From Rhodococcus sp. IEGM 1409 (GTDB taxonomy: Bacteria > Actinomycetota > Actinomycetes > Mycobacteriales > Mycobacteriaceae), in assembly GCF_030056735.1 (NCBI RefSeq), contig NZ_JASHKN010000017.1:1-64000 (forward strand): 64,000 nt of DNA, given 5' to 3'. A program made the translations under genes and the position numbers. A model generated the notes under the pieces. That model did not search any database. It saw only the letters and a program-made list of their open reading frames with translations, and was not told the DNA's origin. Positions 47,563 to 62,592 of this stretch are shown here, piece by piece. How positions within the stretch are numbered: position 1 is the stretch's first letter; each line of letters opens with the position of its first letter.

Positions 47563-47582
47563 ATCTTACCGTAGAGTAAGAT
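47563..47582. promoter_or_regulatory. TTAC-N6-GTAA operator upstream of tetR
   Basis: ATCTTAC-CGTAGA-GTAAGAT is a perfect 7-bp inverted repeat with a 6-base spacer, ending 28 bases before the tetR start. The same core recurs at 50597-50612 (fabG4/fadA2) and 62564-62577 (fadE5). The TetR protein encoded next to it is the obvious candidate binder. Confidence 0.75.
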
Positions 47583-47610
47583 CGACATTTACCCTGTGGT
47601 TGGAGGAAGC

Positions 47611-48210
47611 ATGGCCGGCGGTACCAAGCGACTGCCACGCGCAGTGCGTGAGCAGCAGATGCTCGACGCAGCTGTGGACGTGTTCTCCGACAGGGGGTTT
47701 CACGAAACTTCGATGGACACCATCGCGGCCAAAGCTGAGATCTCGAAGCCGATGCTGTATCTGTACTACGGCTCGAAGGAAGAGCTGTTCGCCGCGTGCA
47801 TTCATCGTGAAGGACTCCGCTTCCTCGAAGCACTCGCCCCGGCCGGCGCGCCCAACCTGACTCCGCGTGAACAATTGCGTGCCGCTCTCGAGGGATTCCT
47901 CGGGTTCGTGGGCGCGAACCGCAAGTCGTGGATGGTGCTTTATCGTCAGGCCGTCGGGCAGCAGGCTTTTGCGGGAACCGTGCAGTCCAGTCGTGATCGG
48001 TTGATCGAGTTGACCGCGCATCTGCTCGAGTCCAGCACCAAGGATCCTGATGCCGCGCACGATTACGGGATCATCGCCATCGCGCTCGTCGGCGCCGGTG
48101 AGGCAGTAGCCGACCGAGTCGCGGGTGGGGAAATCGAAGTGGATGCCGCAGCGGACCTACTCGAATCCCTCGCGTGGCGCGGTCTGTCGGGCAAGAAGAA
48201 GTCCGAATAG
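47611..48210 (+). CDS. TetR family regulator, Rv0238-like
   Basis: The 199-residue regulator has a TetR helix-turn-helix: EQQMLDAAVDVFSDRGFHETSMDTIAAKAEISKPMLYLYYGSKEELF. Its helical ligand domain includes RKSWMVLYRQAVGQQAF. The ATG at 47611 has GGAGGA just before it; the in-frame GTG at 47596 is less likely. A perfect palindrome lies in its own promoter and related palindromes control the neighbouring fatty-acid genes, so it is probably an autoregulated repressor of htdX-fabG4, fadA2 and fadE5. The ligand may be an acyl-CoA; that is inference. Confidence 0.93.
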   Translation: MAGGTKRLPRAVREQQMLDAAVDVFSDRGFHETSMDTIAAKAEISKPMLYLYYGSKEELFAACIHREGLRFLEALAPAGAPNLTPREQLRAALEGFLGFVGANRKSWMVLYRQAVGQQAFAGTVQSSRDRLIELTAHLLESSTKDPDAAHDYGIIAIALVGAGEAVADRVAGGEIEVDAAADLLESLAWRGLSGKKKSE

Positions 48211-48221
48211 CCCCCCAAAAA

Positions 48222-48285
48222 CCAATCTGAGCGAACGTACCTTTCAGCGCATCCAAGGCGCCGAAAGGTACGTTCGCTCAATTGG
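48222..48285. terminator. Long palindromic element / bidirectional terminator
   Basis: TGAGCGAACGTACCTTTC (48228-48245) pairs perfectly with 48263-48280, an 18-bp stem. CCAAT/ATTGG extends it after a one-base bulge, and GCGC pairs within the loop. It lies between the convergent tetR and htdX genes and would serve as a terminator for both. Translations of similar palindromes look familiar from rhodococcal genomes, so it may belong to a dispersed intergenic repeat family. Only one copy was noticed in this window. Confidence 0.8.
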
Positions 48286-48314
48286 GGTGGGTAGGAAACC
48301 CGACAAAACCTAGG

Positions 48315-49181
48315 TCAGCGCAGCGTCGCAGTGACGTGCGGGTAACCCTTCTTCGGGTGACGCAGCGACAGATCCCAGCCGCCATCGGTGCGGTCGGCGT
48401 AGGCATTCAGCGTCGCCGGCAGCAGGATCGGCTTGCCGAAACGCACGCTGTACGTGACCTTGTCCGCGACGGAACCCTCGACGGTCCGCAGAAGGGCTGC
48501 GGCACTCCACATTCCGTGAGCAATGGTCTTCGGAAAACCGAAAGCCTTGGCGCCCAGAGACGAGACGTGGATCGGATTGCGGTCGCCGGAGACCGCGGCG
48601 TACTTGCTGATCGTGGTCTGGTCGACGCGGATGGTGCTCATCGGCATCGGCGGGACCTCGTCAGCCTTGGGTTCCGGTCCGGGCTGGCCGGACAGCGAGG
48701 TCTTTTGCTGGTTCAGGAAGCTCGAGGTCTGTCGCCAGACAAGTTCCCGTCCCACCCGAATTTCGGTGACCACGTCGATCAGCAGGCCCTTGCGGTGCTC
48801 ACGCAGGTTCTCGGCATGCACCGAGAGGTCCAGCGGTTCGCTGACGGAGATGGGCCGCAGCGATTCGATGACGTTCTCGGCGTGAACGGAACCGACGGCG
48901 GCGAAGGGGAAGTCCTTCGACACCATCAGCTTCATCACCGTCGGGAAGGCCAAGGTGAAGGGATAGGTGATCGGCTGAGTGTCGCCGAACCGCAGTCCGG
49001 TCACGCGGCAGTACGCCGCCAGATTGTCGGTGTCGACCTTCAGTCCGGTGAGGGTGAAGGTCTGCTGTGGCACCGAGCGCGAGTGGGACTTGTTCCACGG
49101 CAACAATCCCAGGACCGCGCGGGAGTAGATGTCGAGGGTCTTCGGCTGCTCGGTGAGCGCGACGGTCTTTGTTGCCATCAT
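48315..49181 (-). CDS. htdX: MaoC-family (3R)-hydroxyacyl-thioester dehydratase HtdX
   Basis: The 288-residue double-hotdog protein resembles mycobacterial HtdX (Rv0241c). The C-terminal MaoC half carries [37 protein letters not shown] with the catalytic Asp/His dyad. The N-terminal half is a degenerate hotdog ([36 protein letters not shown]). It dehydrates (3R)-hydroxyacyl-CoA or ACP in reductive fatty-acid elongation or degradation. Its ATG overlaps the fabG4 stop (ATGA), so the two are co-translated. Confidence 0.93.
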
Positions 49182-50524
49182 GCGCCCAGAAGGCTCTGGC
49201 CACAGACGCGAACGACCTGTCCCGTAACGGCATTGGAGGCCGGGCTTGCGAAGTATGCGACGGTCTCTGCGACGTCGACGGTCTCGCCGCCCTGCAAGAG
49301 CGAGCTCATGCGACGGCCGGCTTCGCGGGTGGCGAAGGGGATGGCTGCGGTCATGGCCGTCTCGATGAAGCCCGGCGCGACGGCGTTGATGGTGATGTTC
49401 TTCTTCGCCAGGACCGGAGCTTCGGCGTGAACGAGGCCGATGACGCCGGCCTTGGAGGTGCCGTAGTTGGTCTGGCCGCGGTTGCCCGCGATGCCGGCGA
49501 TGGAGGAGACGTCGACGACGCGGCCGCCTTCCTTGAGGGCGCCCTTCTCGACGAGGTGCTCGGTGATCTTCTGCGGTGCAAGAAGATTGACGTTCATGAC
49601 CATGTTCCAGCGACCCTCGTCCATGTTGGCGAGGGTCTTGTCGCGGGTGATGCCTGCGTTGTGGACGATGATGTCGGCTCCGCCGTGACGCTCGAGGAGA
49701 TGAGCTGCGAGGACCTCGGCTGCGTCGGCTGCCGTGACGTCGAGGGCGAGGGACGTGCCGCCGACCTTGTTCGCGGTCTCGGACAGTGCTTCGCCGGCGG
49801 CCGGGATGTCAGCGCACACGACGTGCGCGCCGTCGCGGGCAAGCACCTCGGCGATGGTGGCGCCGATGCCGCGGGCTGCGCCGGTGACGACGGCAACCTT
49901 TCCTTCGAGCGGCTTGTCCCAGCTCGCGGGCGCGACGGAATCTTCAGCACCGACGACGATGACCTGGCCGTCAACGAAGGCGGACTTGGCCGAAAGAAGA
50001 AAGCGCAGAGTCGATTCCACGCCGGAAAGTCCAGTGGAAGCCTTGGGGGAGACGTAGACCAGCTGAGCGGTGGAGCCGCGCTTGATCTCCTTGCCGACGC
50101 TGCGGGTGAAGCCTTCGAGGGCGCGCTGTGCGACATGCTCGTCGACGCTCGACGTTTCTTCCGGCGTCGTGCCGAGAACGACGACGCGAGCCGACGGTGC
50201 GAGGTTGCGGATCACGGGCTGGAAGAACTCGAACAGCTGCTCGAGCTCGCTGACCTGAGTGATTCCGGTGGCGTCGAACACGAGTCCGCCGAAGCTGCTG
50301 TCGTGCGCCTGAGCCGCGGGGTAGTCGGAGAGCAGTACGCGCAGTGGTTCTGCGAGCCGACCCTTGCCGCCGATGAGGACTGGTCCGGCGAGTGCTGGTT
50401 CCCCTGCTTTGTAGCGACGCAGGTTCTCGGGCCTGGGCAGGCCGGCCTTCGACGCGATGAATGCGCCGGGGGCGGACGAGAGGAACTGTGAATAGAGGTC
50501 GGGAGCTCCCTTGCTGGCTGCCAC
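49178..50524 (-). CDS. fabG4: High-molecular-weight 3-oxoacyl-reductase FabG4
   Basis: The 448-residue protein is the two-domain FabG of mycolic bacteria (Rv0242c, 454 residues). The first ~200 residues form a degenerate flavodoxin-like domain. The C-terminal SDR domain has [17 protein letters not shown] for cofactor, [15 protein letters not shown], and the [22 protein letters not shown] active site with Ser, Tyr and Lys. It reduces 3-oxoacyl-CoA, with NADH in the characterised homologue. It is followed by overlapping htdX and diverges from fadA2 around a shared palindrome. Confidence 0.95.
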
Positions 50525-50596
50525 GGTCCTACCTTCTGTTGTGTTTCGGGTTGTCTCTCACCGGGCAATCGGAAGAATGCGGCGATAGACAAGTAA

Positions 50597-50612
50597 CTTA
50601 CTACTGAGTAAG
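50597..50612. promoter_or_regulatory. TTAC-N6-GTAA operator between fabG4 and fadA2
   Basis: CTTAC-TACTGA-GTAAG shares its core and 6-base spacing with the tetR operator at 47563. It lies in the 130-base divergent promoter, 72 bases before the fabG4 start and 43 before the fadA2 start, so one bound dimer could repress both genes. Confidence 0.7.
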
Positions 50613-50654
50613 AATAGTCTTCAACAGGTAATCGCACCATCCTTGGAGACGCAA

Positions 50655-52010
50655 GTGACAAGCAAAGCCCGTTCAAATGCAAAGCCCGCCGCACCTCGCA
50701 CTGCACCGGCCGCAGCCGCTGCGAAGTCCGCAGGTCAGCGCCGTCCGGTTGCGATCGTCGGCGGAAATCGCATTCCGTTCGCACGCTCGGACAAGGCGTA
50801 CGCACAGGCGTCCAACCAGGACATGTTCACTGCGACGCTCGACGGTCTGGTGAGCCGATTCAATCTGCAGGGCGAGAAGCTCGGCATGGTCGTCGGCGGT
50901 GCGGTGCTCAAGCACAGCCGTGATTTCAATCTCATTCGCGAGTCCGTTCTCGGCAGCGCGCTGAGCCCGTACACGTCGGCGTACGACCTTCAGCAAGCGT
51001 GTGGCACCGGACTGCAGTCGATCATCGCCGTCGGCGACGCCATTTCGGCCGGCCGCATCGATTCCGGCATCGGTGGCGGCACGGACACCACGTCCGATGC
51101 TCCGATCGGCGTCAACGATCAGGCACGCGAGTTCCTGCTCTCCCTCAACCGCGCGAAGTCCACGGGCGACCGCATCAAGCTGCTCGGCAATGTCCGTGCG
51201 GGCATGCTCGGCCTCGAAATTCCGCGCAACGGCGAGCCCCGCACCGGCAAGTCGATGGGTGACCACGCTGCGATCACCGCCAAGGAATTCGGTGTGAAGC
51301 GCGAGGACCAGGACGAACTTGCCGCTGCCAGCCACAAGAACATGGCAGCTGCCTACGACCGCGGTTTCTTCGACGACCTCGTCACCCCGTTCCTCGGTCT
51401 GACCCGCGACGACAACCTCCGTCCTGGTTCGACCGTCGAGAAGCTGTCGACGCTCAAGCCGGTGTTCGGCACCAAGCTCGGCGATGCGACGATGACTGCC
51501 GGCAACTCGACGCCGCTCACCGACGGTGCTTCGGCAGTGCTCCTCTCCACCGACGAGTGGGCAGCCGAGCGTAATCTTCCGGTTCTGGCGCACCTCGTCG
51601 ATTCCGAAACCGCTGCCGTCGACTACGTCCACGGCAAGGACGGGCTGCTCATGGCTCCCACCTACGCGATCCCGCGTTTGCTGGCCCGCAACGGTCTCAC
51701 CTTGCAGGACTTCGATTACTACGAGATCCACGAAGCCTTCGCTTCGGTGGTTCTCGCAACCCTGCAGGCTTTCGAATCCGACGAGTACTGCAAGGAACGC
51801 CTCGGCCTCGACGGCGCACTGGGCTCGATCGACCGAAGCAAGCTCAATGTCAACGGATCGTCCTTGGCTGCAGGTCACCCGTTCGCGGCAACCGGCGGAC
51901 GTATCGTCGCTTCCCTCGCCAAGATGCTCGCCGAAAAGGGTTCGGGCCGCGGCCTGATCTCGATCTGTGCCGCCGGCGGCCAGGGTGTCACGGCGATTAT
52001 CGAGCGGTAA
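50655..52010 (+). CDS. fadA2: Acetyl-CoA acyltransferase (thiolase) FadA2
   Basis: The 451-residue thiolase cleaves 3-oxoacyl-CoA or condenses acyl-CoAs. The nucleophilic Cys is in DLQQACGTGLQS, the catalytic His in YYEIHEAFASV, and the second Cys in ISICAAGGQGVTA. A Lys/Ala/Pro-rich 30-residue N-terminal extension precedes the domain. GTG 50655 is preferred because GGAG lies suitably upstream; TTG 50643 is the open-frame limit. It is the counterpart of Rv0243, next to fabG4 and htdX, and carries the same palindromic operator. Confidence 0.94.
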   Translation: MTSKARSNAKPAAPRTAPAAAAAKSAGQRRPVAIVGGNRIPFARSDKAYAQASNQDMFTATLDGLVSRFNLQGEKLGMVVGGAVLKHSRDFNLIRESVLGSALSPYTSAYDLQQACGTGLQSIIAVGDAISAGRIDSGIGGGTDTTSDAPIGVNDQAREFLLSLNRAKSTGDRIKLLGNVRAGMLGLEIPRNGEPRTGKSMGDHAAITAKEFGVKREDQDELAAASHKNMAAAYDRGFFDDLVTPFLGLTRDDNLRPGSTVEKLSTLKPVFGTKLGDATMTAGNSTPLTDGASAVLLSTDEWAAERNLPVLAHLVDSETAAVDYVHGKDGLLMAPTYAIPRLLARNGLTLQDFDYYEIHEAFASVVLATLQAFESDEYCKERLGLDGALGSIDRSKLNVNGSSLAAGHPFAATGGRIVASLAKMLAEKGSGRGLISICAAGGQGVTAIIER

Positions 52011-52083
52011 TCGCTCCACAATCTCCCCACGTGCGTGAAAACTGCGCTCACCTGCAGTGATCGGCGCGAGGGGATGCGTAATC

Positions 52084-52116
52084 GGGGATCCGGCCACGAG
52101 GGGTGGCCGGATCCTC
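52084..52116. terminator. fadA2 terminator hairpin
   Basis: GGATCCGGCCAC (52086-52097) pairs perfectly with GTGGCCGGATCC (52103-52114) around GAGGG, with a further wobble and a G-C pair outside. It lies 76 bases after the fadA2 stop. No U-tract follows. Confidence 0.78.
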
Positions 52117-52181
52117 GAACTCTTTGCAAACTTTTTCGCGAAGGCGTGTAACGCTGCAGAATAGCTACCGATATTCATGAC

Positions 52182-52228
52182 AGCCCCGTGTTGCTGCCTG
52201 ACCCCCGACCTGGCAGCAGCGCGGGGCT
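52182..52228 (+). promoter_or_regulatory. Large hairpin upstream of the VanW gene
   Basis: AGCCCCG and TGCTGCC (52182-52198) pair with GGCAGCA and CGGGGCT (52212-52228) around a symmetric internal loop, giving 7+7 bp. It lies about 77 bases before the VanW start and just before an AT-rich TATCCTGTAATGA that could hold a -10 element. It may insulate the gene from read-through or act in its leader; the rest of this 294-base gap shows nothing else. Confidence 0.45.
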
Positions 52229-52304
52229 CTCGTATGTCCGGATATCCTGTAATGAGTTGTCGGTGAGCGCCGCAGCGACGGTTGATGCAGCGAGGAGCCA
52301 ACAG

Positions 52305-54584
52305 GTGAGTGACGAAGAGGGTCCGTCCGTCGAGAAGACGAACAACGAGGACTCGTCCCTCCCAGAGCAGGCGCTCGAGTCGGTCGAAGAGACCGAGTCG
52401 GTCGAGGAACCCCAGACCGCTGAGGACACCGAGCCAGTCGTCGAGGCTGAATCAGTAGAGCTTGAATCAGCAGAGCCTGAACCGGTCGAAGCACCGAAGC
52501 CTGTCGACGAAGACGCAATCGATTCCACAGAAGCGACCGTCGACGAACCAGCGCTGGACGAAGAAGTTGCTTCCACCGAACCAACTGTCGACGAGCTGTC
52601 CGACAACGAACTGACCGACGACGAATCGGCAAACGAAGTCACCACCGTCATCCCCGTCGTCCCGGCCGACGACGCACCGCCGACGGAAGTAGTCGACTCG
52701 GCTCCGGCGACCGAAGCCAGCGACGAGCAGACACAGCAGTTCGAGCCCCCGGCAGTGGTGGTTCCCCCGAAGCCGCCGCGCCCCGAGTTCGTGCAGCAGT
52801 ACGACACCCAGCAATTCGAACCCATCCAGCAGCAGTACGAGCCTGTTGTCCGCGAATCAGAGGTAGTTGCACCCCCGCCACCGCAACAACCAGTGGCGCC
52901 CGCTCCGGCTTCTTCCCGCAAGTGGGTCAAGCCGGCGATAGCGGTCGGCGCCATCTTTGCCGTTGCAGCGATTGCCTACGGGGTGGACATCTTCACGTCG
53001 TCGGGGAAAACACCCCGAGGCACGCAGGTCGCCGGGGTCGACATCGGTGATCTCACGCCCGCCGACGCGGAAACCACGCTGCGCGCCGAACTCGGCCCAA
53101 GACTTGTCGAACCCGTAGCCGTACATGCCGGCGGCGTCGACTCCGAGATCGTTCCCGCGTCTGCGGGTGTAGACGTCGACTGGTCGGCCACGTTGTCCGG
53201 TGTGAACGCTCAGCCCATCAACCCGATCACCCGCATCACGTCGTTCTTCGGCTCTCGCGAGGTTCCGGTCGTGTCGACCGTCGACCAGGGGGCGTTGGAC
53301 GCCTCGATGTCGCAGCTTGCTGCGAACAGCGATCGTGCACCCGTCGAAGGCGCAGTCGTATTCGAGGACGGGAAGGCGACGGGTGTTTCACCCGCAGCCG
53401 GCCAGGCGCTCGAAGCGCAGAAGGCGGGCGCCACGTTCGCCGCGGAGTGGTCTGACGGTGGCATCGTCGATCTTCCGGTCGACGAAGTGCCGGTCACCGT
53501 CACTCAGGCCGGTGTCGATCGCGCACTGCAGGAGATCGCTATTCCGGCCGTCTCGGGTGACGTCGTGGTCAACGGCCGTGACGGCAAGGTCGCGACGCTC
53601 GGCGTCGACCAGATCGCCGAGGTCTTGACCTTCACTCCGGATGCTTCCGGTGGGCTGACCCCGCAGTACAACACGGATGCCGCGATCAAGATTCTGACTC
53701 CGCAGTTGGTGTCGACGGAAGTACAACCCAAGGACGCGTCGTTCACCTTCGCCGGTGGTAAGCCGACGGTTGTGCCTGGTGTTGTCGGTGACCTGATCAA
53801 CTGGCCGGACACGGTCAAGGAACTTCCGGTTCTGCTGGGCAGCACGGCTTCTCGGGCAACCCCTGCCGTGTACGGTCCGGTCCCACCGGCATTGACCACC
53901 GAAGCCGCGGACGCACTCGGCATCAATGAGGTGATCGGCGAATTCACCACCGGTGGTTTCGAATACGCGTCCGGTGTCAACATCGGTCTGGCTGCGTCGG
54001 AGATCGACGGTGCGGTCATCAAGCCCGGAGATACGTTCTCGCTCAACGAATACACCGGTCCGCGCGGTGCCGCTCAGGGATACGTCGAGTCGGGGATCAT
54101 CAACAACGGTCGCCCGGACAAGGCCGTCGGCGGCGGTATCAGTCAGCTTGCGACGACGCTCTACAACGCAACGTACTTCGCAGGCATGGACGACGTTGCA
54201 CATACCGAGCACAGCTACTACATCTCGCGGTACCCCGAGGCTCGTGAGGCGACCATCTTCGACGGTGCGATCGACCTGCAGTTCCGTAATCCGGCGAAGA
54301 CCGGCGTGATGATCGAGACGATTGCGACGTCGTCGAACATCACCGTTCGGATCTGGGGAACCAAAACCGTCGATGTCGCTTCGACGACGGGCCCGCGTAC
54401 GTCGCCGACGTCACCGAACACCGTGACGTTGCCGGAGGGGCCTGGCTGTGTGGCTTCGAGCGGTGCGCCCGGATTCACGGTCAGCGACACTCGCGTGATC
54501 ACCGACCACGCGAGTGGCGCCGAGATTTCCTCGAACACCCGGACCGTCAAGTACGACCCGGTGCCGATCGTGAAGTGCGAGTAG
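52305..54584 (+). CDS. VanW family protein with acidic cytosolic tail and peptidoglycan-binding-type domains
   Basis: The 759-residue protein begins with ~170 residues of acidic repeats (Glu/Ser/Val/Thr) ending in a Pro/Gln-rich linker. One membrane helix follows (KPAIAVGAIFAVAAIAYGVDIF). Outside, two copies of a PG_binding_4-type domain (GVDIGDLTPADAETTLRAEL and a second near residue 380) lead to the VanW domain, with GDTFSLNEYTGPRGAAQGYVES and GGGISQLATTLYNATYFAGMD. VanW proteins are cell-wall associated with unknown activity. GTG 52305 is chosen for the GAGGAG 8 bases upstream. Confidence 0.9.
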   Translation: MSDEEGPSVEKTNNEDSSLPEQALESVEETESVEEPQTAEDTEPVVEAESVELESAEPEPVEAPKPVDEDAIDSTEATVDEPALDEEVASTEPTVDELSDNELTDDESANEVTTVIPVVPADDAPPTEVVDSAPATEASDEQTQQFEPPAVVVPPKPPRPEFVQQYDTQQFEPIQQQYEPVVRESEVVAPPPPQQPVAPAPASSRKWVKPAIAVGAIFAVAAIAYGVDIFTSSGKTPRGTQVAGVDIGDLTPADAETTLRAELGPRLVEPVAVHAGGVDSEIVPASAGVDVDWSATLSGVNAQPINPITRITSFFGSREVPVVSTVDQGALDASMSQLAANSDRAPVEGAVVFEDGKATGVSPAAGQALEAQKAGATFAAEWSDGGIVDLPVDEVPVTVTQAGVDRALQEIAIPAVSGDVVVNGRDGKVATLGVDQIAEVLTFTPDASGGLTPQYNTDAAIKILTPQLVSTEVQPKDASFTFAGGKPTVVPGVVGDLINWPDTVKELPVLLGSTASRATPAVYGPVPPALTTEAADALGINEVIGEFTTGGFEYASGVNIGLAASEIDGAVIKPGDTFSLNEYTGPRGAAQGYVESGIINNGRPDKAVGGGISQLATTLYNATYFAGMDDVAHTEHSYYISRYPEAREATIFDGAIDLQFRNPAKTGVMIETIATSSNITVRIWGTKTVDVASTTGPRTSPTSPNTVTLPEGPGCVASSGAPGFTVSDTRVITDHASGAEISSNTRTVKYDPVPIVKCE

Positions 54585-54588
54585 GGAA

Positions 54589-55572
54589 CTACTTGCCGAC
54601 GAGTGGGCCGAGGGTGCGGCCCGCGAGGTCGACGATGCCTGGCTCTTCGCCGTTGGTGATCAGGTTGATCACGACGCCGTCGATGCCGTGGTCGAGGATG
54701 CGTGTCTGAACCTGCTCGGCGACGTCGTCCGGGCTGCCGACGAAATGACGTTCGGTGGCTTTGGCGACAACGTCTTCCGGCGCTGTGGTGATGTCGAGAC
54801 CACGTTCCGCGAGGAATGTTCGCTGATGCGCGCGAGCCTTGTCGCCGTCCTCGTCGATCATCATGAACGTCAGGAAGCTGGTCTCGAGGGTTGCGGGGTC
54901 GCGGCCGGCTTCGTCGCAGCGCGCCGCAAGTGCTTCCATCTTGCGCGGCAGTTCCGACGGGTCACAGATGATGTTGAGGTGATCCGCGAAGCGAGCGGCG
55001 AGCCCGAACGTCTTCTTCTCGCCGCCGCCGCCGAGCAGGATCGGCAAGTCGTCGCGGACGCGGGGCTCGTTGATGGCGTCGTTGACGTGGTACCACTTGC
55101 CGTCGAAGGTGGGACGCTCACCGCGGAGCATCGGCGCGATGATCTGCAGTGCTTCGTCGAGTTTCTGGAAGCGTTCGGTGAATGTTCCGAACTCGTATCC
55201 GAACGAATTGTGTTCGAGTTCGAACCAACCGGCGCCGATGCCGAGAATGGCCCGACCGCCGCTCACCACGTCGAGGGTGGTGACGGTCTTGGCAAGCATG
55301 GGCGGATTGCGGTAGGTGTTTCCCGTGACCAGTGCAGACAACTGGATGGTCTCGGTGGCCGTCGCCAGCGCGGAGAGCGCCGAGTAGGCCTCGAGCATCG
55401 GGGCGTCCGGCGCTCCGATTCCGGGGAGTTGGTAGAAGTGATCCATCACGAATGCAGTGTCGAAGCCTGCGGCTTCGGCTTCGCGGGCCTGCGCTATGAC
55501 GGTGGGGAAGAGGTCCTTGACCGGACCGCCGTAGCTGAAGTTGGGCATCTGGTATCCGAGGCGAGTGCTCAC
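54589..55572 (-). CDS. LLM-class F420-dependent oxidoreductase
   Basis: The 327-residue protein is a luciferase-like monooxygenase fold enzyme of the F420-dependent group. MPNFSYGG starts the first strand; FVMDHFYQLPGIG, LGIGAGWFELEHNSFGYEFGTF and LLGGGGEKKTFGLAARFAD are typical of mycobacterial F420 enzymes. The substrate is unknown. GTG 55572 lies exactly 7 bases after TAACGT, the spacing of a leaderless start, so I use it instead of the longer frame. The stop is 4 bases from the convergent VanW stop. Confidence 0.9.
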   Translation of the reverse strand: MSTRLGYQMPNFSYGGPVKDLFPTVIAQAREAEAAGFDTAFVMDHFYQLPGIGAPDAPMLEAYSALSALATATETIQLSALVTGNTYRNPPMLAKTVTTLDVVSGGRAILGIGAGWFELEHNSFGYEFGTFTERFQKLDEALQIIAPMLRGERPTFDGKWYHVNDAINEPRVRDDLPILLGGGGEKKTFGLAARFADHLNIICDPSELPRKMEALAARCDEAGRDPATLETSFLTFMMIDEDGDKARAHQRTFLAERGLDITTAPEDVVAKATERHFVGSPDDVAEQVQTRILDHGIDGVVINLITNGEEPGIVDLAGRTLGPLVGK

Positions 55573-55657
55573 CGTTTCGACGTTACTCGCGATCGGTTGA
55601 CCTGGCACGATTTTACCAACTCTATGGATTCCGTTGTGCTGGGCAGACTTCCGCAAT

Positions 55658-56146
55658 TCAGAGAAGTTCTTCGGCCGCTTCGCGACGCTTGGCACGCTGC
55701 TGGTGGTGCTTTACGCCCAGGATGGCGGCTGTGGCGCCGACGAGTGCACCGACTCCAGCGCCGGCCCAGGTCGCGATTCCGTCGCCCGGGCGAGTTACGA
55801 GTTGGGCGACGACGCCGATCAATGCGATCAGATAGACGGATCCAGCCACGAGAGATCGGGGCTGGAGACCCTTCATGCTTGTGTAGACGTCGACGTCGTG
55901 AGCCTGCGCGTAGCGGAGCACCACCATCGAGCAGATAAACCATCCGATGACCAGTCCCAATGAAATCCATGCGCCGGTTCGTCCGGCAACCCACGGAAGA
56001 ACTGCCGCTGCGATCAACGTGATCCAGTAGGCGAATTGGAACCCAACCGCCGAGGCTTCGTTCCAGACGTCGCGCTGACGCTCGTCCTTGTAGAAGTCGT
56101 CGTCCAGATCTCCGACGAACCGCATTGCCTTCATGATGGTGCTCAT
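55658..56146 (-). CDS. Four-helix membrane protein paired with an Xre regulator
   Basis: The 162-residue protein has a charged N-terminus (FVGDLDDDFYKDERQRDVWNEA) and four hydrophobic segments, with the first two at AYWITLIAAAVLPWVAG and ISLGLVIGWFICSMVVL, and a basic C-terminus. I do not recognise a characterised family. Its ATG overlaps the Xre gene stop as ATGA, so the two are translated together. Such small Xre-membrane pairs are common in actinobacteria and may form a regulated membrane sensor. Confidence 0.75.
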   Translation of the reverse strand: MSTIMKAMRFVGDLDDDFYKDERQRDVWNEASAVGFQFAYWITLIAAAVLPWVAGRTGAWISLGLVIGWFICSMVVLRYAQAHDVDVYTSMKGLQPRSLVAGSVYLIALIGVVAQLVTRPGDGIATWAGAGVGALVGATAAILGVKHHQQRAKRREAAEELL

Positions 56147-56388
56147 GCCGTCTCCTCTGGAATTTCTGTGATGAGTTCCGATTCGGGTAGGGGGAAGAGT
56201 GCTTCGACGGTGGCCCCCAGCGCCAGTGCCAGGCGAAGTGCCAGGTAGACGCTCGGTGCGTAGTCGCCGCGTTCGACGGAGACGATGCTCTGTCTGCTCA
56301 CTTGGCCTGCTGTGGCCAGTTGTGCCTGGGTGAGGCCGGCGAGGCGTCGGTGCTCCCGCACGTTGTTGTCGCCAGCCTTTCCAGTCAT
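56143..56388 (-). CDS. Xre-family HTH regulator
   Basis: The 81-residue protein is a single helix-turn-helix domain: NVREHRRLAGLTQAQLA, then VSRQSIVSVERGDYAPSVYLALRLALALG, typical of the Cro/CI family (YozG-like). It is coupled by ATGA to a membrane protein gene. An inverted repeat ACTTG-N11-CAAGT lies 17 bases before its start, so autorepression is likely. It diverges from a nucleotidyltransferase gene. Confidence 0.9.
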   Translation of the reverse strand: MTGKAGDNNVREHRRLAGLTQAQLATAGQVSRQSIVSVERGDYAPSVYLALRLALALGATVEALFPLPESELITEIPEETA

Positions 56389-56404
56389 GGGAAAAGTAAA
56401 GAAT

Positions 56405-56425
56405 ACTTGTCACGCGATGTCAAGT
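56405..56425. promoter_or_regulatory. Candidate Xre operator
   Basis: ACTTG and CAAGT form an inverted repeat separated by 11 bases in the 64-base divergent region between the Xre gene and the nucleotidyltransferase gene. A further TTGTCA follows at 56430. The position suits autoregulation of the Xre pair. Confidence 0.4.
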
Positions 56426-56452
56426 TTGCTTGTCATATGGAAGGCTGACGGT

Positions 56453-57031
56453 ATGCGTGAACGATTTCTCGAGATCGCCCTGGCCAATCCTGTGGTCGCA
56501 ACGATCGTGGATCGGGCGCCGAAGTTGGAGTTGGCTGAGTGGTACCTGACGGCGGGCGGGCTTTTTCACACCGTCTGGAATCACATCGACGGTCGTGACC
56601 CCGGGGCCGGGATCAAGGACTACGACCTCTTCTATTTCGACGCCGACGATCTGAGCTACGAAGCGGAAGATCGCGTAATTCGTTCGGCCGCAGAACTGTT
56701 CGCCGATGTGGATGCCGATATCGAAGTGCGCAATGAAGCCCGCGTGCACCTGTGGTACGAGCAGCATTTCGGGATTCCTGGCGTTCCGTTCACCAGTTGC
56801 CGAGACGCTATCGACCACTTCGCTTCCACAACCTGCTGTTTCGGGATCACCAAGGCATCGGACGGCACCGTGGACGTGTATGCCCCGCACGGGTACGGCG
56901 ATCTTTTCGACATGATCGTCCGCCCCAACCCGGTGCTCGCACCGAGAGAGGTGTACGAGGCCAAGGCGGCACGGTGGCGTAGGGAATGGCCTGCGCTGAC
57001 CGTGGAGCCTTGGCCCGAGAGCTGGACCTAG
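56453..57031 (+). CDS. Nucleotidyltransferase family protein (DUF925/NTP_transf_6)
   Basis: The 192-residue protein matches the NTP_transf_6 family. LTAGGLFHTVWNHIDG is followed by KDYDLFYFDADD with the two active-site Asp residues, then DIEVRNEARVHLWYEQHFG and the C-terminal GYGDLFDMIVRPNP segment. The polymerase-beta-like fold suggests nucleotidyl transfer, but no substrate is known. The ATG at 56453 has GGAAGG 8 bases upstream; the longer frame overlaps the Xre gene and is rejected. The stop shares CTAG with the convergent exporter gene. Confidence 0.87.
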   Translation: MRERFLEIALANPVVATIVDRAPKLELAEWYLTAGGLFHTVWNHIDGRDPGAGIKDYDLFYFDADDLSYEAEDRVIRSAAELFADVDADIEVRNEARVHLWYEQHFGIPGVPFTSCRDAIDHFASTTCCFGITKASDGTVDVYAPHGYGDLFDMIVRPNPVLAPREVYEAKAARWRREWPALTVEPWPESWT

Positions 57032-59040
57032 ACCTCGATCGGTGGATGCAACCTGTCCATGGTCCATTGCCGATTTCGGCGTGCAGCAAGTGAACTGGCG
57101 CCGAGTGAGGCGACGAGAAGGCCACCGAGGACGGCGATCGAGACCCACAGCCTCGAGTCGATACCTCCCACTGTGAGTTGTCGTAGCCCGTTCACCGCGT
57201 AGGTCATCGGGTCGAACGGGTGGATGATCTGGAACGGTTTCGCGGTGGTTTCGACGGGATAGATGCCGCCGGCCGAAACCAGTTGCAGCATCAGGAAGGC
57301 CAGGGTGATCACGCGTCCGACGGATACCCCGAAGACGGCGTTGAATGCCTGGATCAACGCCATGTAGGTAGCAGTGATGAGCATCAGGAACCCGACGGTA
57401 CCGAGGGCGTGCGTGGGGTGCAGGCCGACGGCGAAGTGCACGACCAGGTACATCACGATTACCTGGCAGATGCCGATGAGCAATGCCGGCCAGTACGAGG
57501 CGAGGACTACCCGCAGCGCGCCGAGCCCGTTTGCGATGGGCCGGTTCTGGAGCGGCTTGAGCAGCATCCAGGTGATGATGCCTCCCACGAACAGCGCGAG
57601 AGGCAGGAAGAACGGAGCAAAACCGGTGCCGAAGGTGCTTGCCCGGTTCTCGTAAGTTTCCTGCAGTTCGACCGGGCTGGAGAGGGTTTGAGCGGTTGCG
57701 GTTCGCTGCTGATCGGTCCAACTGGGAATCTGGCCGGCGCCCTCGGTGAGTTTGGTTGCGAGTTCGGAGGATCCGGCACGAAGTTGCTCGGTGCCGTCTG
57801 CAAGTTTGGCCGCACCGTCGGAGAGTTGGACGCTGCCGTCGGTGAGTTGAACCAGTCCACTACTGAGGGTTTGAGCTCCGTCGTTGACTTGTTGACCGCC
57901 GTCACGCAGCTGCACCAGACCGTTGCGGAGTTCACCGCCGCCGTTTGCCGCGGCATTCAGCCCGGCTCGGAAGGTGCTCGACGGATCGTCGAGTTGGTAA
58001 GCGAGTTGTTGTGCACCGCTCTCGAGTTCGCCCAGTTGGCCCATGGTCGCTTCACCGAAACCCTGAGTGCGCAGCATGTCTTGGGCAGGTGCGAGGGCAT
58101 TGGCGATCTGTTGGCTGACGGGATCCGGGTTCAGCCGAAGGCTGGCCACTGCCTGCCCGACCAGCTGTGCGACGTCTGCTTGTGTGTTCCCGAGGACGCT
58201 CAGCTGGTCGACGACCTGGGTGACGCCACCACTGAGTTGGCTTGCGCCGTCGCCCAGTTGGACAGCTCCGAGATCGAGTTGACCCAAACCGTCGGTCAGT
58301 GCGAGGACACCGTCCGTGGCGGTGTTGATACCAGTCGAGAGTTGCGCCGTACCGCCGGCAAGGGTGGCTGCACCGTCACGTGCGGTGACCATGTTGTCGG
58401 CCAGCGTTTTCGAGCCCGACGCCAATTCGCCGGCTCCGGCATTGGCCGTGTTCACTCCGGCCGAGAGCTGGAGCGCTCCGTCGGCAGCCTGCTTCAAACC
58501 TGCACCCGCGTCGGTCAATCCGACCAGAACCGTCTCGACCGACTGCGCGCCGATCTTGTCGCTGACTTGGCTGAGGACCTGCTGGGCGGCATTTTGACCG
58601 ATGATGGTACCGAGATAGTTGTTGACGTCGTTGAAGGTGAACTGCAACTGCGCTTTGTGGGGGTCCTTGGACGTCGGGGAGGCAACGGCCTCGCTGAAAT
58701 TCTCGGGCAGAGTGAGAGAGAAGTAGTACGTGCCGTCCGAAACTCCCTGTGCGGCTTCCTGCTGTGAGACCAGGTGGAGATCGAGCTCACCGGAATCGAG
58801 CAACGCTTGGCTTACCTCGTCGCCCGCGTTGAGTTCCTGCCCCTGGACCATCGCGCCACGGTCGGTGTTGACCAGCGCGACGGGGACTTTGTTCACCTCA
58901 CCGAACGGATTCCAGAAGGCCCACAAGTACATCGCGCCGTACAGGAGCGGCATCAAGATGATGGTGACAAGTGCGATCCTGGGCATCGCGCCGCGGGAGA
59001 ACCGCTTGAGTTCGGTTCCGAGAGACATTCCAGCGAGCAT
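57028..59040 (-). CDS. YhgE/Pip-type ABC-2 membrane exporter
   Basis: The 670-residue protein has one N-terminal helix (ALVTIILMPLLYGAMYLWAFW) and a long extracytoplasmic region with many repeated ~11-residue Leu/Gly/Ala units (GLVQLTDGSVQLSDGAAKLADG), a helical rod typical of YhgE/Pip. About five C-terminal helices (FFLPLALFVGGIITWMLL onwards) form the ABC-2 permease-like part. Relatives include the phage-infection protein Pip and the EsaA/YueB-like rods. The likely partner is the ABC-like ATPase ending 5 bases upstream. The transported substrate is unknown. Confidence 0.9.
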   Translation of the reverse strand: MLAGMSLGTELKRFSRGAMPRIALVTIILMPLLYGAMYLWAFWNPFGEVNKVPVALVNTDRGAMVQGQELNAGDEVSQALLDSGELDLHLVSQQEAAQGVSDGTYYFSLTLPENFSEAVASPTSKDPHKAQLQFTFNDVNNYLGTIIGQNAAQQVLSQVSDKIGAQSVETVLVGLTDAGAGLKQAADGALQLSAGVNTANAGAGELASGSKTLADNMVTARDGAATLAGGTAQLSTGINTATDGVLALTDGLGQLDLGAVQLGDGASQLSGGVTQVVDQLSVLGNTQADVAQLVGQAVASLRLNPDPVSQQIANALAPAQDMLRTQGFGEATMGQLGELESGAQQLAYQLDDPSSTFRAGLNAAANGGGELRNGLVQLRDGGQQVNDGAQTLSSGLVQLTDGSVQLSDGAAKLADGTEQLRAGSSELATKLTEGAGQIPSWTDQQRTATAQTLSSPVELQETYENRASTFGTGFAPFFLPLALFVGGIITWMLLKPLQNRPIANGLGALRVVLASYWPALLIGICQVIVMYLVVHFAVGLHPTHALGTVGFLMLITATYMALIQAFNAVFGVSVGRVITLAFLMLQLVSAGGIYPVETTAKPFQIIHPFDPMTYAVNGLRQLTVGGIDSRLWVSIAVLGGLLVASLGASSLAARRNRQWTMDRLHPPIEV

Positions 59041-59045
59041 CGCGG

Positions 59046-59768
59046 TTACCTCGCCCCTTCTTGGTCGGGATTGGTGACTTCTTGGAGCAAGGTGACGGCA
59101 TCGATGGGTGATCCGTCAGGCAGCGGGTTGACGGTCGACGCGATGATGGTCTGGTAGCTCCCCATCTCGACGAGTCGCTCGACGAGATATGCGCGCTCGG
59201 AGTCACGCCGCACCTGTTCGAGATCGTCGACGACCAGCAGAGCCGGCTTCTTCGTGTTCGCGACCGCGATGCGCAGCAGGGTCGCCTCGAGTTCGCCGAG
59301 GTCGCTGACGTATCGGCCGAGTGCAGGCAACGGATGATCGCCGAATACGGGAGCACACACCGCTTCGAGTTCTCGATCCCCGGCACGTCCGATGAGCTTG
59401 TACCAGGGTGCGTCCCAACGGATCTGCTCGGTGATCAGATCGCGGACGGTGACGGACTCGGCAAGCTCGTCGATGTCCTCGAACCCGGCGATCGAGGCGA
59501 TCTCGAAGATCTCACGGGGACGGGTTCGACCGAAGACGGAGAGCGATCCGGAACTGGCTTTCATTCGCCCGCTGAGTGTCAGAAGTAAGGACGTACGTCC
59601 TGAACCGGCCGAACCTTCGAGGATGGTCACACCGCCCGCACGAATTTCGAGATTGACGTGTCCGAACACCGGCCCCCATGGGCCGTCGAGCGCCAAGTCC
59701 GTGGCAGTCAATGCCAGGTCGGGGGCGTAATCGGGTTGTGCGTGCTCTGGTGCGACCACGATGATCAC
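59046..59768 (-). CDS. ABC-type ATPase-like protein with degenerate nucleotide site
   Basis: The 240-residue protein has the ABC ATPase outline but altered key residues. Walker A is GSAGSGRTS, with Arg in place of Lys. The signature region VSDLGELEATLLRIA replaces LSGGQ-x4-A. Walker B LLVVDDLEQ lacks the usual DE pair, and the switch His is not evident (IIASTVNPL). It may hydrolyse ATP poorly or act only structurally. It is the upstream partner of the YhgE/Pip exporter. Because the fold looks intact and the operon tight, it is probably a maintained variant, not a pseudogene. Confidence 0.85.
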   Translation of the reverse strand: MIIVVAPEHAQPDYAPDLALTATDLALDGPWGPVFGHVNLEIRAGGVTILEGSAGSGRTSLLLTLSGRMKASSGSLSVFGRTRPREIFEIASIAGFEDIDELAESVTVRDLITEQIRWDAPWYKLIGRAGDRELEAVCAPVFGDHPLPALGRYVSDLGELEATLLRIAVANTKKPALLVVDDLEQVRRDSERAYLVERLVEMGSYQTIIASTVNPLPDGSPIDAVTLLQEVTNPDQEGAR

Positions 59769-59873
59769 CTGTCTGTTGATCTACTCGGCCTTCGAAAGAA
59801 CCGAGTGCTGGTTCAGTGGACGTTCGTGCTCACCCAATCACATCGTCAAGGGGCGAGCGGTCCCACGAATGGG

Positions 59874-59888
59874 ATGTGTCGGACACAT
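59874..59888. promoter_or_regulatory. Perfect palindrome ATGTGTC-G-GACACAT
   Basis: A 7-bp inverted repeat with a single-base centre lies in the 180-base divergent region between the ABC ATPase gene and the lipoprotein gene. The half-site is the same as in the palindrome at the left edge of the window, though with a different centre. Probably an operator; the regulator is unknown. Confidence 0.45.
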
Positions 59889-59948
59889 TCGGGAACTTGG
59901 AGACCGAACGGTATGTATTCTGTTGGAAACGGAATGAGGGGAATAGAG

Positions 59949-60581
59949 GTGCCGGTTCGTAGACGCGGTATGTGCGTGTTGCTTGTCATGGCCGCCCTGT
60001 CGGTTGTCTCCTGCGCCGGTGAGCGCGAGTCGCCCCCGTTCGTGTCCAGCGAGAGGCTTTTCGAGTTCACCGGTCGCAATGTCGGACCGTTGACGTTGCC
60101 GCCCTTGCCTTCCGAAGGGCCCGAGTCCGAAGCAGCGCCCTATGGAGCGATCACCCTGACCGGTGGGTGGACCGGCGCAGCCAGTGTCTCGCTGCCCGGA
60201 TCCGTCACGTGTTTCGAGCACAACTGGGCGGATTCGCTGCCTGCCGGGCACCGTCAGTGGGCCTACGAGGTGCACACCAGTTCCTTCTACGAATACGACG
60301 GCGGCGGCGAATATCCGGGACGTGATTTCCAGTTGCAGGTCTACGTGAACGAAAAACCGGAACTGGGTCAGCACGGGGCGGCGATCATGAAGTTCTCGGA
60401 TCAGAGCGGACAGTTCGTCTCCTTCGGCGGCGTCGACGACAAGTCCATCGAAATAGTCAGTTCTCCAGATCGCAGGCGTGTGGCGCTTTCCCTGGCGGGA
60501 ACGGCGGCACGACCCGGCGAACAACCGACGAGTTCCGTACTGTCCGCGCAGATCAGTTGTCCGGCTGTCGAGCGCAGATGA
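59949..60581 (+). CDS. Putative lipoprotein
   Basis: The 210-residue protein has a basic start (VRRRG), a hydrophobic segment and lipobox LSVVSC with the acylated Cys near residue 21. The mature part is a beta-rich domain with two Cys residues (SVTCFEHNW and AQISCPAV), which could form a disulfide. I do not recognise the family. GTG 59949 follows GGGGAAT; ATG 59934 and ATG 59913 are alternatives. It diverges from the degenerate ABC ATPase. Confidence 0.75.
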   Translation: MPVRRRGMCVLLVMAALSVVSCAGERESPPFVSSERLFEFTGRNVGPLTLPPLPSEGPESEAAPYGAITLTGGWTGAASVSLPGSVTCFEHNWADSLPAGHRQWAYEVHTSSFYEYDGGGEYPGRDFQLQVYVNEKPELGQHGAAIMKFSDQSGQFVSFGGVDDKSIEIVSSPDRRRVALSLAGTAARPGEQPTSSVLSAQISCPAVERR

Positions 60582-60608
60582 TCGCAGACGACATCGAGCG
60601 CTGACAAC

Positions 60609-60649
60609 AAAAATGCCGGCCCCGAAACATTCTCGGGACCGGCACTTTT
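60609..60649. terminator. Bidirectional intrinsic terminator
   Basis: TGCCGGCCCCGA (60614-60625) pairs with TCGGGACCGGCA (60633-60644) with one mismatch. AAAAA precedes and CTTTT follows, giving U-tracts on both strands. It ends both the lipoprotein and the fadE5 transcripts. Confidence 0.9.
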
Positions 60650-60666
60650 CATGAATCAGGAACGAA

Positions 60667-62502
60667 TCAGAATGCTGCTTCGTCGATCTCCATGATGTCG
60701 TTCTCGGTGTTCGCGACGATCTCACGCGAAGCGGTGAGCTCCGGCAGGACGTTCTTGGCGAAGAAGGACGCGATGGCGACCTTGCCCTCGTAGAAGCTCT
60801 TGTCCTTGTCGGAAGCGCCGTTGTCGAGTGCTGCGAGAGCGATCTCGGACTGACGGAGCAGCTGCCAGCCGATGAGCAGGTCGCCGACGGACATCAGGAA
60901 GCGGACGGAGCCGAGGCCGACCTTGTACAGCTCGGTGGGCTGCTCCTGAGCTCCCATGAGGAAGCCGGTGAGCGTGGCGGCCATGGCCTGGACGTCTTCG
61001 AGTGCGGTGGCGAGCAGTGCGCGCTCCGCCTTCAGACGGCCGTTGCCGGCTTCGCTGTCGATGAAGGTCTTGATCTGTCCGGCAACGTGAGCGAGCGCGA
61101 CGCCGCGGTCACGGGCGATCTTGCGGAAGAAGAAGTCCTGAGCCTGGATGGCCGTGGTGCCTTCGTACAGCGAGTCGATCTTGGAGTCGCGGATGTACTG
61201 CTCGATCGGGTAGTCCTGCAGGAAGCCGGAGCCGCCGAGGGTCTGCAGGCTGTCCGTCAGGTACTGGTACGCACGCTCGGAGCCGACGCCCTTGACGATC
61301 GGGAGCAGCAGGTCGTTGACGCGGAACGCGGTGTCCTTGTCTGCGCCCGAGACATGTTGGGCGACAACCTCGTCCTGGTGCGCTGCGGTGTAGAGGTATA
61401 CCGCACGCAGGCCTTCGGCGTATGCCTTCTGCATTGCCAGGCTGCGACGCACGTCGGGGTGATGCGTGATGCTGACGCGCGGTGCCGCCTTGTTGGTCAT
61501 CTGGGTCAGGTCGGCACCCTGCACACGCTGCTTGGCGTAGTCCAGTGCGTTGAGGTAACCGGTCGAGAGGGTGGAGATCGCCTTGGTGCCCACCATCATT
61601 CGAGCGTGCTCGATGACGTCGAACATCTGCGCGATGCCGTTGTGGACGTCGCCGACCAACCAGCCCTGTGCGGGGACGCCGTGGCCACCGAAGGTGAGCT
61701 CACAGGTGGTGGACGCTTTGAGACCCATCTTGTGCTCGACGTTGGTGACGAAAACGCCGTTGCGCTCGCCGAGGGTTTCGGTCTCGAAGTCGAAGTGAGT
61801 CTTCGGGACGAAGAACAGGCTCAGGCCCTTGGTGCCGGGTCCGGCGCCTTCGGGGCGTGCGAGAACCAGGTGGAAGATGTTTTCGAACAGGTCATCCGAG
61901 GTTGCGGACGTGATGAAGCGCTTGACGCCTTCGATGTGCCAGGAGCCGTCGTCCTGCTTGATGGCCTTGGTGCGGCCTGCGCCGACGTCGGATCCGGCGT
62001 CGGGCTCGGTGAGGACCATGGTGGCACCCCATCCGCGTTCGACGGCGGTGGCGGCCCACTTCTTCTGCTCTTCGGTGCCGTTGTGGAACAGCACGTCGGC
62101 AAACGAGGGTCCGGCCTGGTACATGAATGCTGCGGGCTGAGAGCCGAGGAGCATTTCAGAGATTGCCCACACGACGGAGCGGGGAACCGGTACGCCACCG
62201 ATTTCTTCGCTCAGGCCCATCCGGTACCACTCGGCGTCCCACATCGACTTGAAGGACTTCTTGAAGGACTCCGGGAGCGTCGCCTCGTGGGTCTCCGGAT
62301 CGAAGACAGGCGGCTTGCGGTCGGTGTCTGCGAACGCCTCGGCAAGAGGGCCCTCGGCCAGACGCGCGACCTCGGCCAGCATGTTGCGGACGGTGTCGGC
62401 GTCCAGGTCGCCCCAAGCGCCTTCGCTCAGCGGCTTTTCCAGTCCGAGAACCTCGAAGAGGTTGAACTCCAGGTCCCGAACGTTGCTCTTGTAATGGCCC
62501 AT
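60667..62502 (-). CDS. fadE5: Acyl-CoA dehydrogenase FadE5
   Basis: The 611-residue FAD enzyme introduces the 2,3 double bond into acyl-CoA in beta-oxidation. Length equals mycobacterial FadE5. The N-terminal helical domain is followed by [21 protein letters not shown], then [11 protein letters not shown] and [40 protein letters not shown] with the catalytic Glu region near the end. A C-terminal extension of ~130 residues is typical of the large ACAD subgroup. ATG 62502 follows GGGAGAA. The promoter carries the same palindrome as tetR and fabG4/fadA2, so it probably belongs to that regulon. Confidence 0.95.
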
Positions 62503-62563
62503 GTCTTCTGCTTCTCCCAGTGAGGTGGTGCGGTCCAGCACTCCTAGTACCGCCCGAAGTTTA

Positions 62564-62592
62564 TTACTCGTCGGTAACTTAATACATGTTAC
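62564..62592. promoter_or_regulatory. TTAC-N6-GTAA operator upstream of fadE5
   Basis: TTAC-TCGTCG-GTAA (62564-62577) has the same core and spacing as the operators at 47563 and 50597. It overlaps a second inverted repeat, GTAAC-N9-GTTAC (62574-62592). The site ends 62 bases before the fadE5 ATG, in the expected -35 area. Confidence 0.65.

Follow-up and report, generated by a model that had tools for sequence, protein, structure and literature searches.

Does a single palindrome, read by a single TetR-type regulator, hold together the genes of a fatty acid regulon? The question is raised by the first 64,000 nucleotides of contig NZ_JASHKN010000017.1 of Rhodococcus sp. IEGM 1409 (assembly GCF_030056735.1), the stretch referred to below as the window. 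A preliminary description of this DNA had reported the pattern TTAC-N6-GTAA (TTACNNNNNNGTAA) in the promoters of a tetR gene, of the divergent pair fabG4/fadA2 and of fadE5, and had expected well under one copy in the window by chance. All three sites were found again when the window was re-read: TTACNNNNNNGTAA matches exactly at 47566-47579, 50598-50611 and 62564-62577, where 0.05 copies are expected, and three copies were reached in none of 100 shuffles. In front of tetR the pattern is part of the 20-bp palindrome ATCTTACCGTAGAGTAAGAT, and the ATG (47611) follows 31 bp beyond the end of the 14-bp core. CTTACTACTGAGTAAG sits in the 118-bp gap between the fabG4 start (50524, reverse strand) and the fadA2 frame, and TTACTCGTCGGTAA lies 61 bp ahead of the fadE5 start (62502, reverse strand). 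From sequence comparison we consider it highly probable that the window TetR is a counterpart of the mycobacterial regulator FdmR, that it binds a refined form of this operator, TTACY-N4-RGTAA, at its own promoter, at that of fabG4-htdX/fadA2 and at a wider set of lipid-catabolism promoters, and that it is released by long-chain acyl-CoA.

The refined operator is conserved in the orthologous promoters. The named loci used here are the 80 best of 221 and come from Rhodococcus, Rhodococcoides, Prescottella, Antrihabitans, Skermania, Nocardia, Gordonia and Williamsia; their fabG4/fadA2 gap holds an exact TTACY-N4-RGTAA in 80 of 80. The tetR promoter carries it in 65 of 74 loci, with one mismatch in eight others and two in one (the remaining six of the 80 have no tetR match), and the fadE5 promoter in 18 of 27, eleven more loci, whose sequence stops too close to the gene, being left out. 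The broad pattern was followed through one locus each from 20 genera (L148-L167): it is exact before tetR in 16, has one mismatch in two and is absent from two, and it is exact in all 18 loci that hold both fabG4 and fadA2. Over L119-L167 the tetR promoter has an exact copy in 38 of 49 loci, one mismatch in nine and none in two. In genome G003 the site is present at both places although tetR and fabG4/fadA2 are 82 kb apart (L149, L198). Absence of the motif from orthologous promoters had been named beforehand as an argument against the regulon; in the genera covered, among which no Mycobacterium was recognised, the motif is there. The genera g11, g2 and g25 were also considered as possible Mycobacterium and rejected, as their FabG4 pieces reach 504-568 bits over about 410 residues against FabG4 structures that we take to be mycobacterial, too low for the same genus.

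A genome-wide scan had been proposed as well, and its outcome depended on the form of the pattern. With the reversed pattern as control for all motif counts, the broad TTAC-N6-GTAA is only mildly enriched in the strain's own genome (26 copies versus 19), whereas the refined TTACY-N4-RGTAA occurs 22 times versus 2. The 23 broad-pattern sites outside the window were taken as 22 stretches (L005-L026, with two sites in L009), in which genes were called with a simple codon model and targets typed by Pfam matches; a called gene start lies within 350 bp of 20 of the 22 refined sites. Targets are enoyl-CoA hydratases (L005, L011), a secretory lipase (L006, at a site that also reaches into the tail of the called gene before it), malic enzyme (L007), an AMP-ligase (L008), a DUF4442 protein (L013), an NAD_binding_4/SDR reductase (L014), an FAD oxidoreductase with a fatty-acid desaturase behind it (L015), an acyl-CoA dehydrogenase transcribed divergently from a histidine kinase (L016), an electron-transfer flavoprotein (ETF) with a divergent methyltransferase (L017), a thiolase (L021), a CCG/Fer4 protein resembling EtfD (L023) and AurF (L025). 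The sites at hydratase, dehydrogenase, thiolase, ETF and EtfD-like genes support the earlier proposal that one core operator runs through a lipid-catabolism regulon. The copy at L011 (2493-2522) is embedded in a 30-bp inverted repeat with perfect 12-bp arms near the hydratase start and may have a structural role instead of serving as an operator.

Seven other genomes were compared, using all sites of G010, G003 and G025, 12 of 13 in G022, 20 of 21 in G023, 8 of 16 in G030 and 2 of 15 in G029. Sites at the tetR, fadE5, L014, L016, fadA2, fabG4, L013, L017 and L023 clusters were seen in five to seven of the eight genomes, and many other targets in one or two only. A site in G023 precedes malate synthase. 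G025 encodes a second TetR of 233 amino acids, about 35% identical to FdmR (L208, 1298-1999, reverse strand), with an exact TTACY-N4-RGTAA 1 bp before its called start. Tandem sites with starts 15 bp apart stand before the fadE5 orthologue in G030 (L240, 1994-2022) and before etfD orthologues in the genus g8 (L244 and L249, both at 1501-1529).

The operator also goes together with the regulator. A match to the window TetR at E≤1e-30 was found in 136 of 151 genomes of the family. These 136 contain 1589 copies of TTACY-N4-RGTAA versus 192 of the reversed pattern, with sites above control in 135 and equal to it in one, and the 15 genomes lacking the TetR have 46 versus 50, with sites above control in six. 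As ten of the 15 are the smaller genomes of the genus g3 (15 sites versus 34), the contrast is in part a comparison of lineages.

The window TetR matches PF00440 (TetR_N) with 63 bits and PF21943 (TetR_C_46) with 97 bits. Its best structure is PDB 3f1b (379 bits), a TetR-like transcriptional regulator that is a close full-length homologue and whose entry, as matched, names neither an organism nor a function or DNA site; 6o6p and 6o6n come next, and these, with 6o6o, are presumably structures of Mycobacterium tuberculosis FasR. The protein itself falls outside the FasR equivalog (91.7 bits, cut-off 330), and a separate FasR orthologue is encoded elsewhere in the genome (C22:346767). Bacillus FadR and PsrA, acyl-CoA-released TetR repressors of fatty-acid breakdown that follow the same logic, give weak model matches only (38 bits, cut-off 200, and 35 bits, cut-off 300). 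Over 93 distinct sequences among 123 orthologues, residues 43-56, the region of the recognition helix, have a mean modal frequency of 0.94 versus 0.75 in the ligand domain.

The regulator is most likely the counterpart of FdmR (Rv0238). It shares with it the tetR/htdX/fabG4/fadA2/fadE5 neighbourhood, for which we assume the mycobacterial gene order Rv0238 and Rv0241c-Rv0244c (htdX-fabG4-fadA2-fadE5). The TetR_N and TetR_C_46-type ligand domains expected of an FdmR were read in the window TetR, and candidate operators stand before its own gene and before fadE5. It differs in that 12.5 kb of unrelated genes separate tetR from fadE5 here. FdmR has been described as repressing genes for the degradation and modification of fatty acids and responding to long-chain acyl-CoA (PMC12403877), as a key regulator of fadE5, with a mutant in M. 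marinum (PMC9262360), and as a mechanism that moves fatty acids from catabolism to lipid anabolism (PMC10501769); Rv0238 is reported to be kept in all mycobacteria analysed (PMC4482099). Because FdmR is described as an acyl-CoA-responsive repressor controlling fadE5, the central idea of a fat-breakdown switch is already established for mycobacteria, and its occurrence in Rhodococcus is new; among the titles and abstract openings listed in a literature search, with many journals, including that of the FdmR paper, outside its coverage, no Rhodococcus study of this regulator was seen. The consensus of the operator, the two flavours of it and the ETF and EtfD targets come from the present analysis, without comparison to the published FdmR motif or regulon. 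MadR was considered as reader of the operator and rejected, as its consensus TCTGTGxxxxxxxGT is different (PMC8872791).

A plausible mechanism can be drawn from these data, in which repression and the response to acyl-CoA are carried over from the published FdmR. The TetR would bind as a dimer to TTACY-N4-RGTAA, preferring sites with C before the left arm and G after the right arm, at its own promoter, at the divergent fabG4-htdX/fadA2 promoter and at the wider lipid-catabolism set; fadE5 may not belong to it alone. Where a start codon follows the operator by 7-10 bp, the right arm with the next bases could serve as a TAANNT -10 box, and since the arm reads as such a box a bound dimer would block RNA polymerase. 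A long-chain acyl-CoA in the C-terminal domain, TetR_C_46, which the FasR orthologue has as well, would then release the protein. The extended operator, aligned on 60 one-sided sites with the 33 divergent ones left out, is approximately ANSTTACY-N4-RGTAASNT. The T of GTAANNT is present on the gene side in 40 of these 60 and in the far-side mirror position in 33. Overlap with a -10 box was therefore rejected as the cause of the conserved outer A/T, which is nearly symmetric and so belongs mainly to the operator. Support for the overlap is confined to the one-sided sites with a called start 7-10 bp away, where the T was seen, by eye, in 8 of 8.

Several observations weigh against assigning the whole set to the window TetR. 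In the own genome, the L019 site has no called target, the L026 site lies inside a called gene, the targets at L009 (AlkZ-like), L012 (PepX-type, pseudouridine synthase) and L024 (response regulator) have no obvious role in lipid metabolism, and that at L010 is of no known kind. The other nine of the 27 fadE5 promoters have a site with one mismatch only, and in L155 and L166 the tetR promoter lacks a site even when one mismatch is allowed. The orthology with Rv0238 is drawn from the neighbourhood, as we assume it, and from the identity of the neighbours. The excess of sites persists in three genomes that lack the TetR, G007 (4:0), G037 (6:1) and G014 (11:3), although G014 was discarded as evidence for absence because it is only 66% complete. 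G007 and G037 form the genus g8, in which no FdmR orthologue was found at E≤1e-30; nine of its ten sites nevertheless precede orthologues of fadE5, etfD, etfB and the L016 dehydrogenase (fadE). Finally, the sites before etfB, etfD, fadE5 and thiolase do not show the preferred flank: outside TTAC they carry G in 31, A in 6 and C in 5 of 42 half-sites.

This last point is a property of the operator itself, as the sites fall into two flavours that have the 14-bp core in common. At tetR, fabG4/fadA2 and the orthologues of L016, L014 and L013 the outside base is C in 58 of 64 half-sites, with G and A in three each; the contrast with the G-flanked group gives a Fisher value of 8e-17 for gene sets chosen after the flanks had been seen and with the other targets left out. 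On the gene-distal side in the named loci, TTAC is preceded by C at 53 of 55 distinct tetR sites and at 40 of 40 fadA2 sites, and by G at 12 of 14 fadE5 sites. TTACTCGTCGGTAA, with outer flanks A and C, has G on the gene-distal strand and is placed with the G-flanked group. What had been put forward as one TetR palindrome holds for the core operator and is not fully supported for the single reader, as fadE5 differs in flank class from tetR and fabG4/fadA2 and the TetR-less genus keeps its fadE5 sites; one TetR with one palindrome is probably too simple.

The genus g8 is informative here. Nine of its sites have G in 15 of 18 half-sites. The fabG4 and fadA2 genes are present, but the gap between them reads AGCTACT-N4-AGTAGCT, a drifted form of the site, in tandem with starts 22-23 bp apart (L279, 10937-10972; L280, 9044-9080); G007 has two copies and G037 one together with a half-changed one (L280). 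No site within two mismatches was seen in the stretch examined at the L014 orthologue. A TetR for the changed site encoded next to fabG4 was considered and rejected: ten TetR queries (E≤1e-4) against 141 kb of g8 placed TetR genes in L278 and L286 alone, with none in the 95 kb around fabG4 (L279-L284). Since the two flavours changed independently in this genus, the comparison suggests two readers.

FasR (Rv3208) is a possible first candidate for the second reader. The best matches to the window TetR in g8 are FasR orthologues, 55-57% identical to the strain's own FasR. FasR resembles the window TetR as a paralogue with TetR_C_46, a long-chain acyl-CoA ligand, a related helix-turn-helix and a related core half-site, and differs in being only about 30% identical to it and in its reported role, the activation of fas-acpS by way of three inverted repeats (PMC7382501). 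In the fas 5' regions of nine genomes, overlapping copies TACY-N4-RGTATACY-N4-RGT, perhaps the FasR site, are seen in three (L262, L266, L268) and single near-copies in two (L261, L269). In the other four, those of G003, G002 and the two g8 genomes, there is no copy of this kind, save for a match at the fas start codon of G007. Scored with L176, L177 and L030 left out, the fasR promoters show a site with two mismatches in the own genome and one with a single mismatch in G007, and none was found in that of G037. The oligonucleotide of the FasR crystal contains ACTCGCCAGTA (PMC7382501); the oligonucleotide has at best three mismatches to the operator consensus, one of them beyond its end.

Two explanations of the flavours have to be weighed. 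In the first, which is plausible if short of an even chance, two paralogous acyl-CoA-sensing TetRs share the core TACY-N4-RGTA, FdmR reading the C-flanked sites of tetR, fabG4/fadA2, L016, L014 and L013, and FasR or another TetR the G-flanked ones of fadE5, etfB, etfD and thiolase. The split of the flanks, in the grouped sites and in the named loci, the G-flanked sites kept at the same targets in FdmR-less g8 while the fabG4/fadA2 gap is altered, the near-copies before fas and fasR, and the crystal oligonucleotide argue for it. However, the gene sets were grouped by flanks already seen, recurrent targets such as L008 and L015 fit neither set clearly, the base on the gene-near side of fadE5 sites is T in 12 of 14 in the named loci, FdmR is reported to regulate fadE5 (PMC9262360) and FasR to activate fas-acpS (PMC7382501), the site is missing from some fas and fasR promoters, and the oligonucleotide is at least three mismatches away. 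In the second explanation, a credible one that we would still not call probable, FdmR alone reads both flavours, the flanks are promoter elements or tune affinity, and g8 has exchanged FdmR for a diverged TetR. The reported control of fadE5, the common 14-bp core and the slightly more frequent T on the gene side are in line with this, but a single reader would not lead one to expect that the flavours change independently in g8. That the palindromes are chance matches or a generic promoter or terminator feature is very improbable, as the weak enrichment of the broad pattern and the inverted repeat at L011 are set against the counts of the refined pattern, the conservation across genera, which already contradicts it, and the lack of an overall excess in TetR-less genomes. 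With FdmR retained as the reader of the C-flanked sites, we offer more tentatively a fuller version, in which TTACY-N4-RGTAA would be an operator code common to two TetR paralogues that sense acyl-CoA in mycolic-acid actinobacteria. The C-flanked sites would belong to FdmR; a second regulator, with FasR as first candidate, would hold a G-flanked block of fadE5, thiolase, ETF and the EtfD membrane oxidoreductase that outlives FdmR where FdmR is lost.

Table 1. Genes and operator sites of the FdmR-like locus in the window.
Feature	Coordinates	Strand	Basis
TetR-family regulator, FdmR-like, 199 aa	47611..48210	+	TetR_N and TetR_C_46; full-length match to PDB 3f1b
htdX-like MaoC-domain dehydratase	48315..49181	-	PF01575
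fabG4-like 3-oxoacyl reductase	49178..50524	-	match to PDB 5vp5, named FabG4
fadA2-like acetyl-CoA C-acyltransferase (thiolase)	50643..52010	+	NF006740, 774 bits (cut-off 539)
fadE5-like acyl-CoA dehydrogenase, 611 aa	60667..62502	-	residues 1-611 align with 1-611 of 6kse, named FadE5
20-bp palindrome ATCTTACCGTAGAGTAAGAT, presumed autoregulatory operator, C-flanked	47563..47582	.	exact-motif count in tetR promoters
Putative operator CTTACTACTGAGTAAG, divergent fabG4/fadA2 promoter, C-flanked	50597..50612	.	
Putative operator TTACTCGTCGGTAA, before fadE5	62564..62577	.	exact window match and conservation across loci

The genes around the sites are listed in Table 1, where the name htdX is our assumption from gene position. 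For fadA2 the first start codon is at 50643 and the gene caller favours 50655; for fadE5, the start at 62502 gives a protein that aligns with FadE5 structures from its first residue, and the gene caller favours 62541. Within the 80 best loci of 221, the named FabG4 sequences nearest to this one are those of Rhodococcus sp. P-2, R. erythropolis and R. qingshengii, with 99-100% identity. Between the convergent tetR and htdX lies an 18-bp perfect inverted repeat, TGAGCGAACGTACCTTTC (48228-48280), without a T-run, which is perhaps a two-way terminator; both arms are present in L039-L041 and L119-L121 and a single exact arm in L042 and L097. Directly downstream of fadA2, 52188-54584 encodes a 798-residue protein with a weak VanW-type match (residues 597-728), at which the pattern scan of the window found no TTAC-N6-GTAA operator.

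The analysis extends a known mycobacterial switch of fat breakdown to many genera of the family and yields an operator and a target list that can be tested. The G-flanked block would, if it is real, tie fadE5 and thiolase to ETF and EtfD, so that the dehydrogenase and the exit of its electrons would be switched together. EtfD and EtfBA are reported to serve many acyl-CoA dehydrogenases and to be a vulnerable part of β-oxidation in M. tuberculosis (PMC8593149). No paper on a common operator of fadE5, etfB and etfD was seen among the titles and abstract openings listed, many journals lying outside the coverage; such an operator would tell how the EtfD/EtfBA block is regulated. The genus g8 is a natural experiment in this respect and may separate two regulators.

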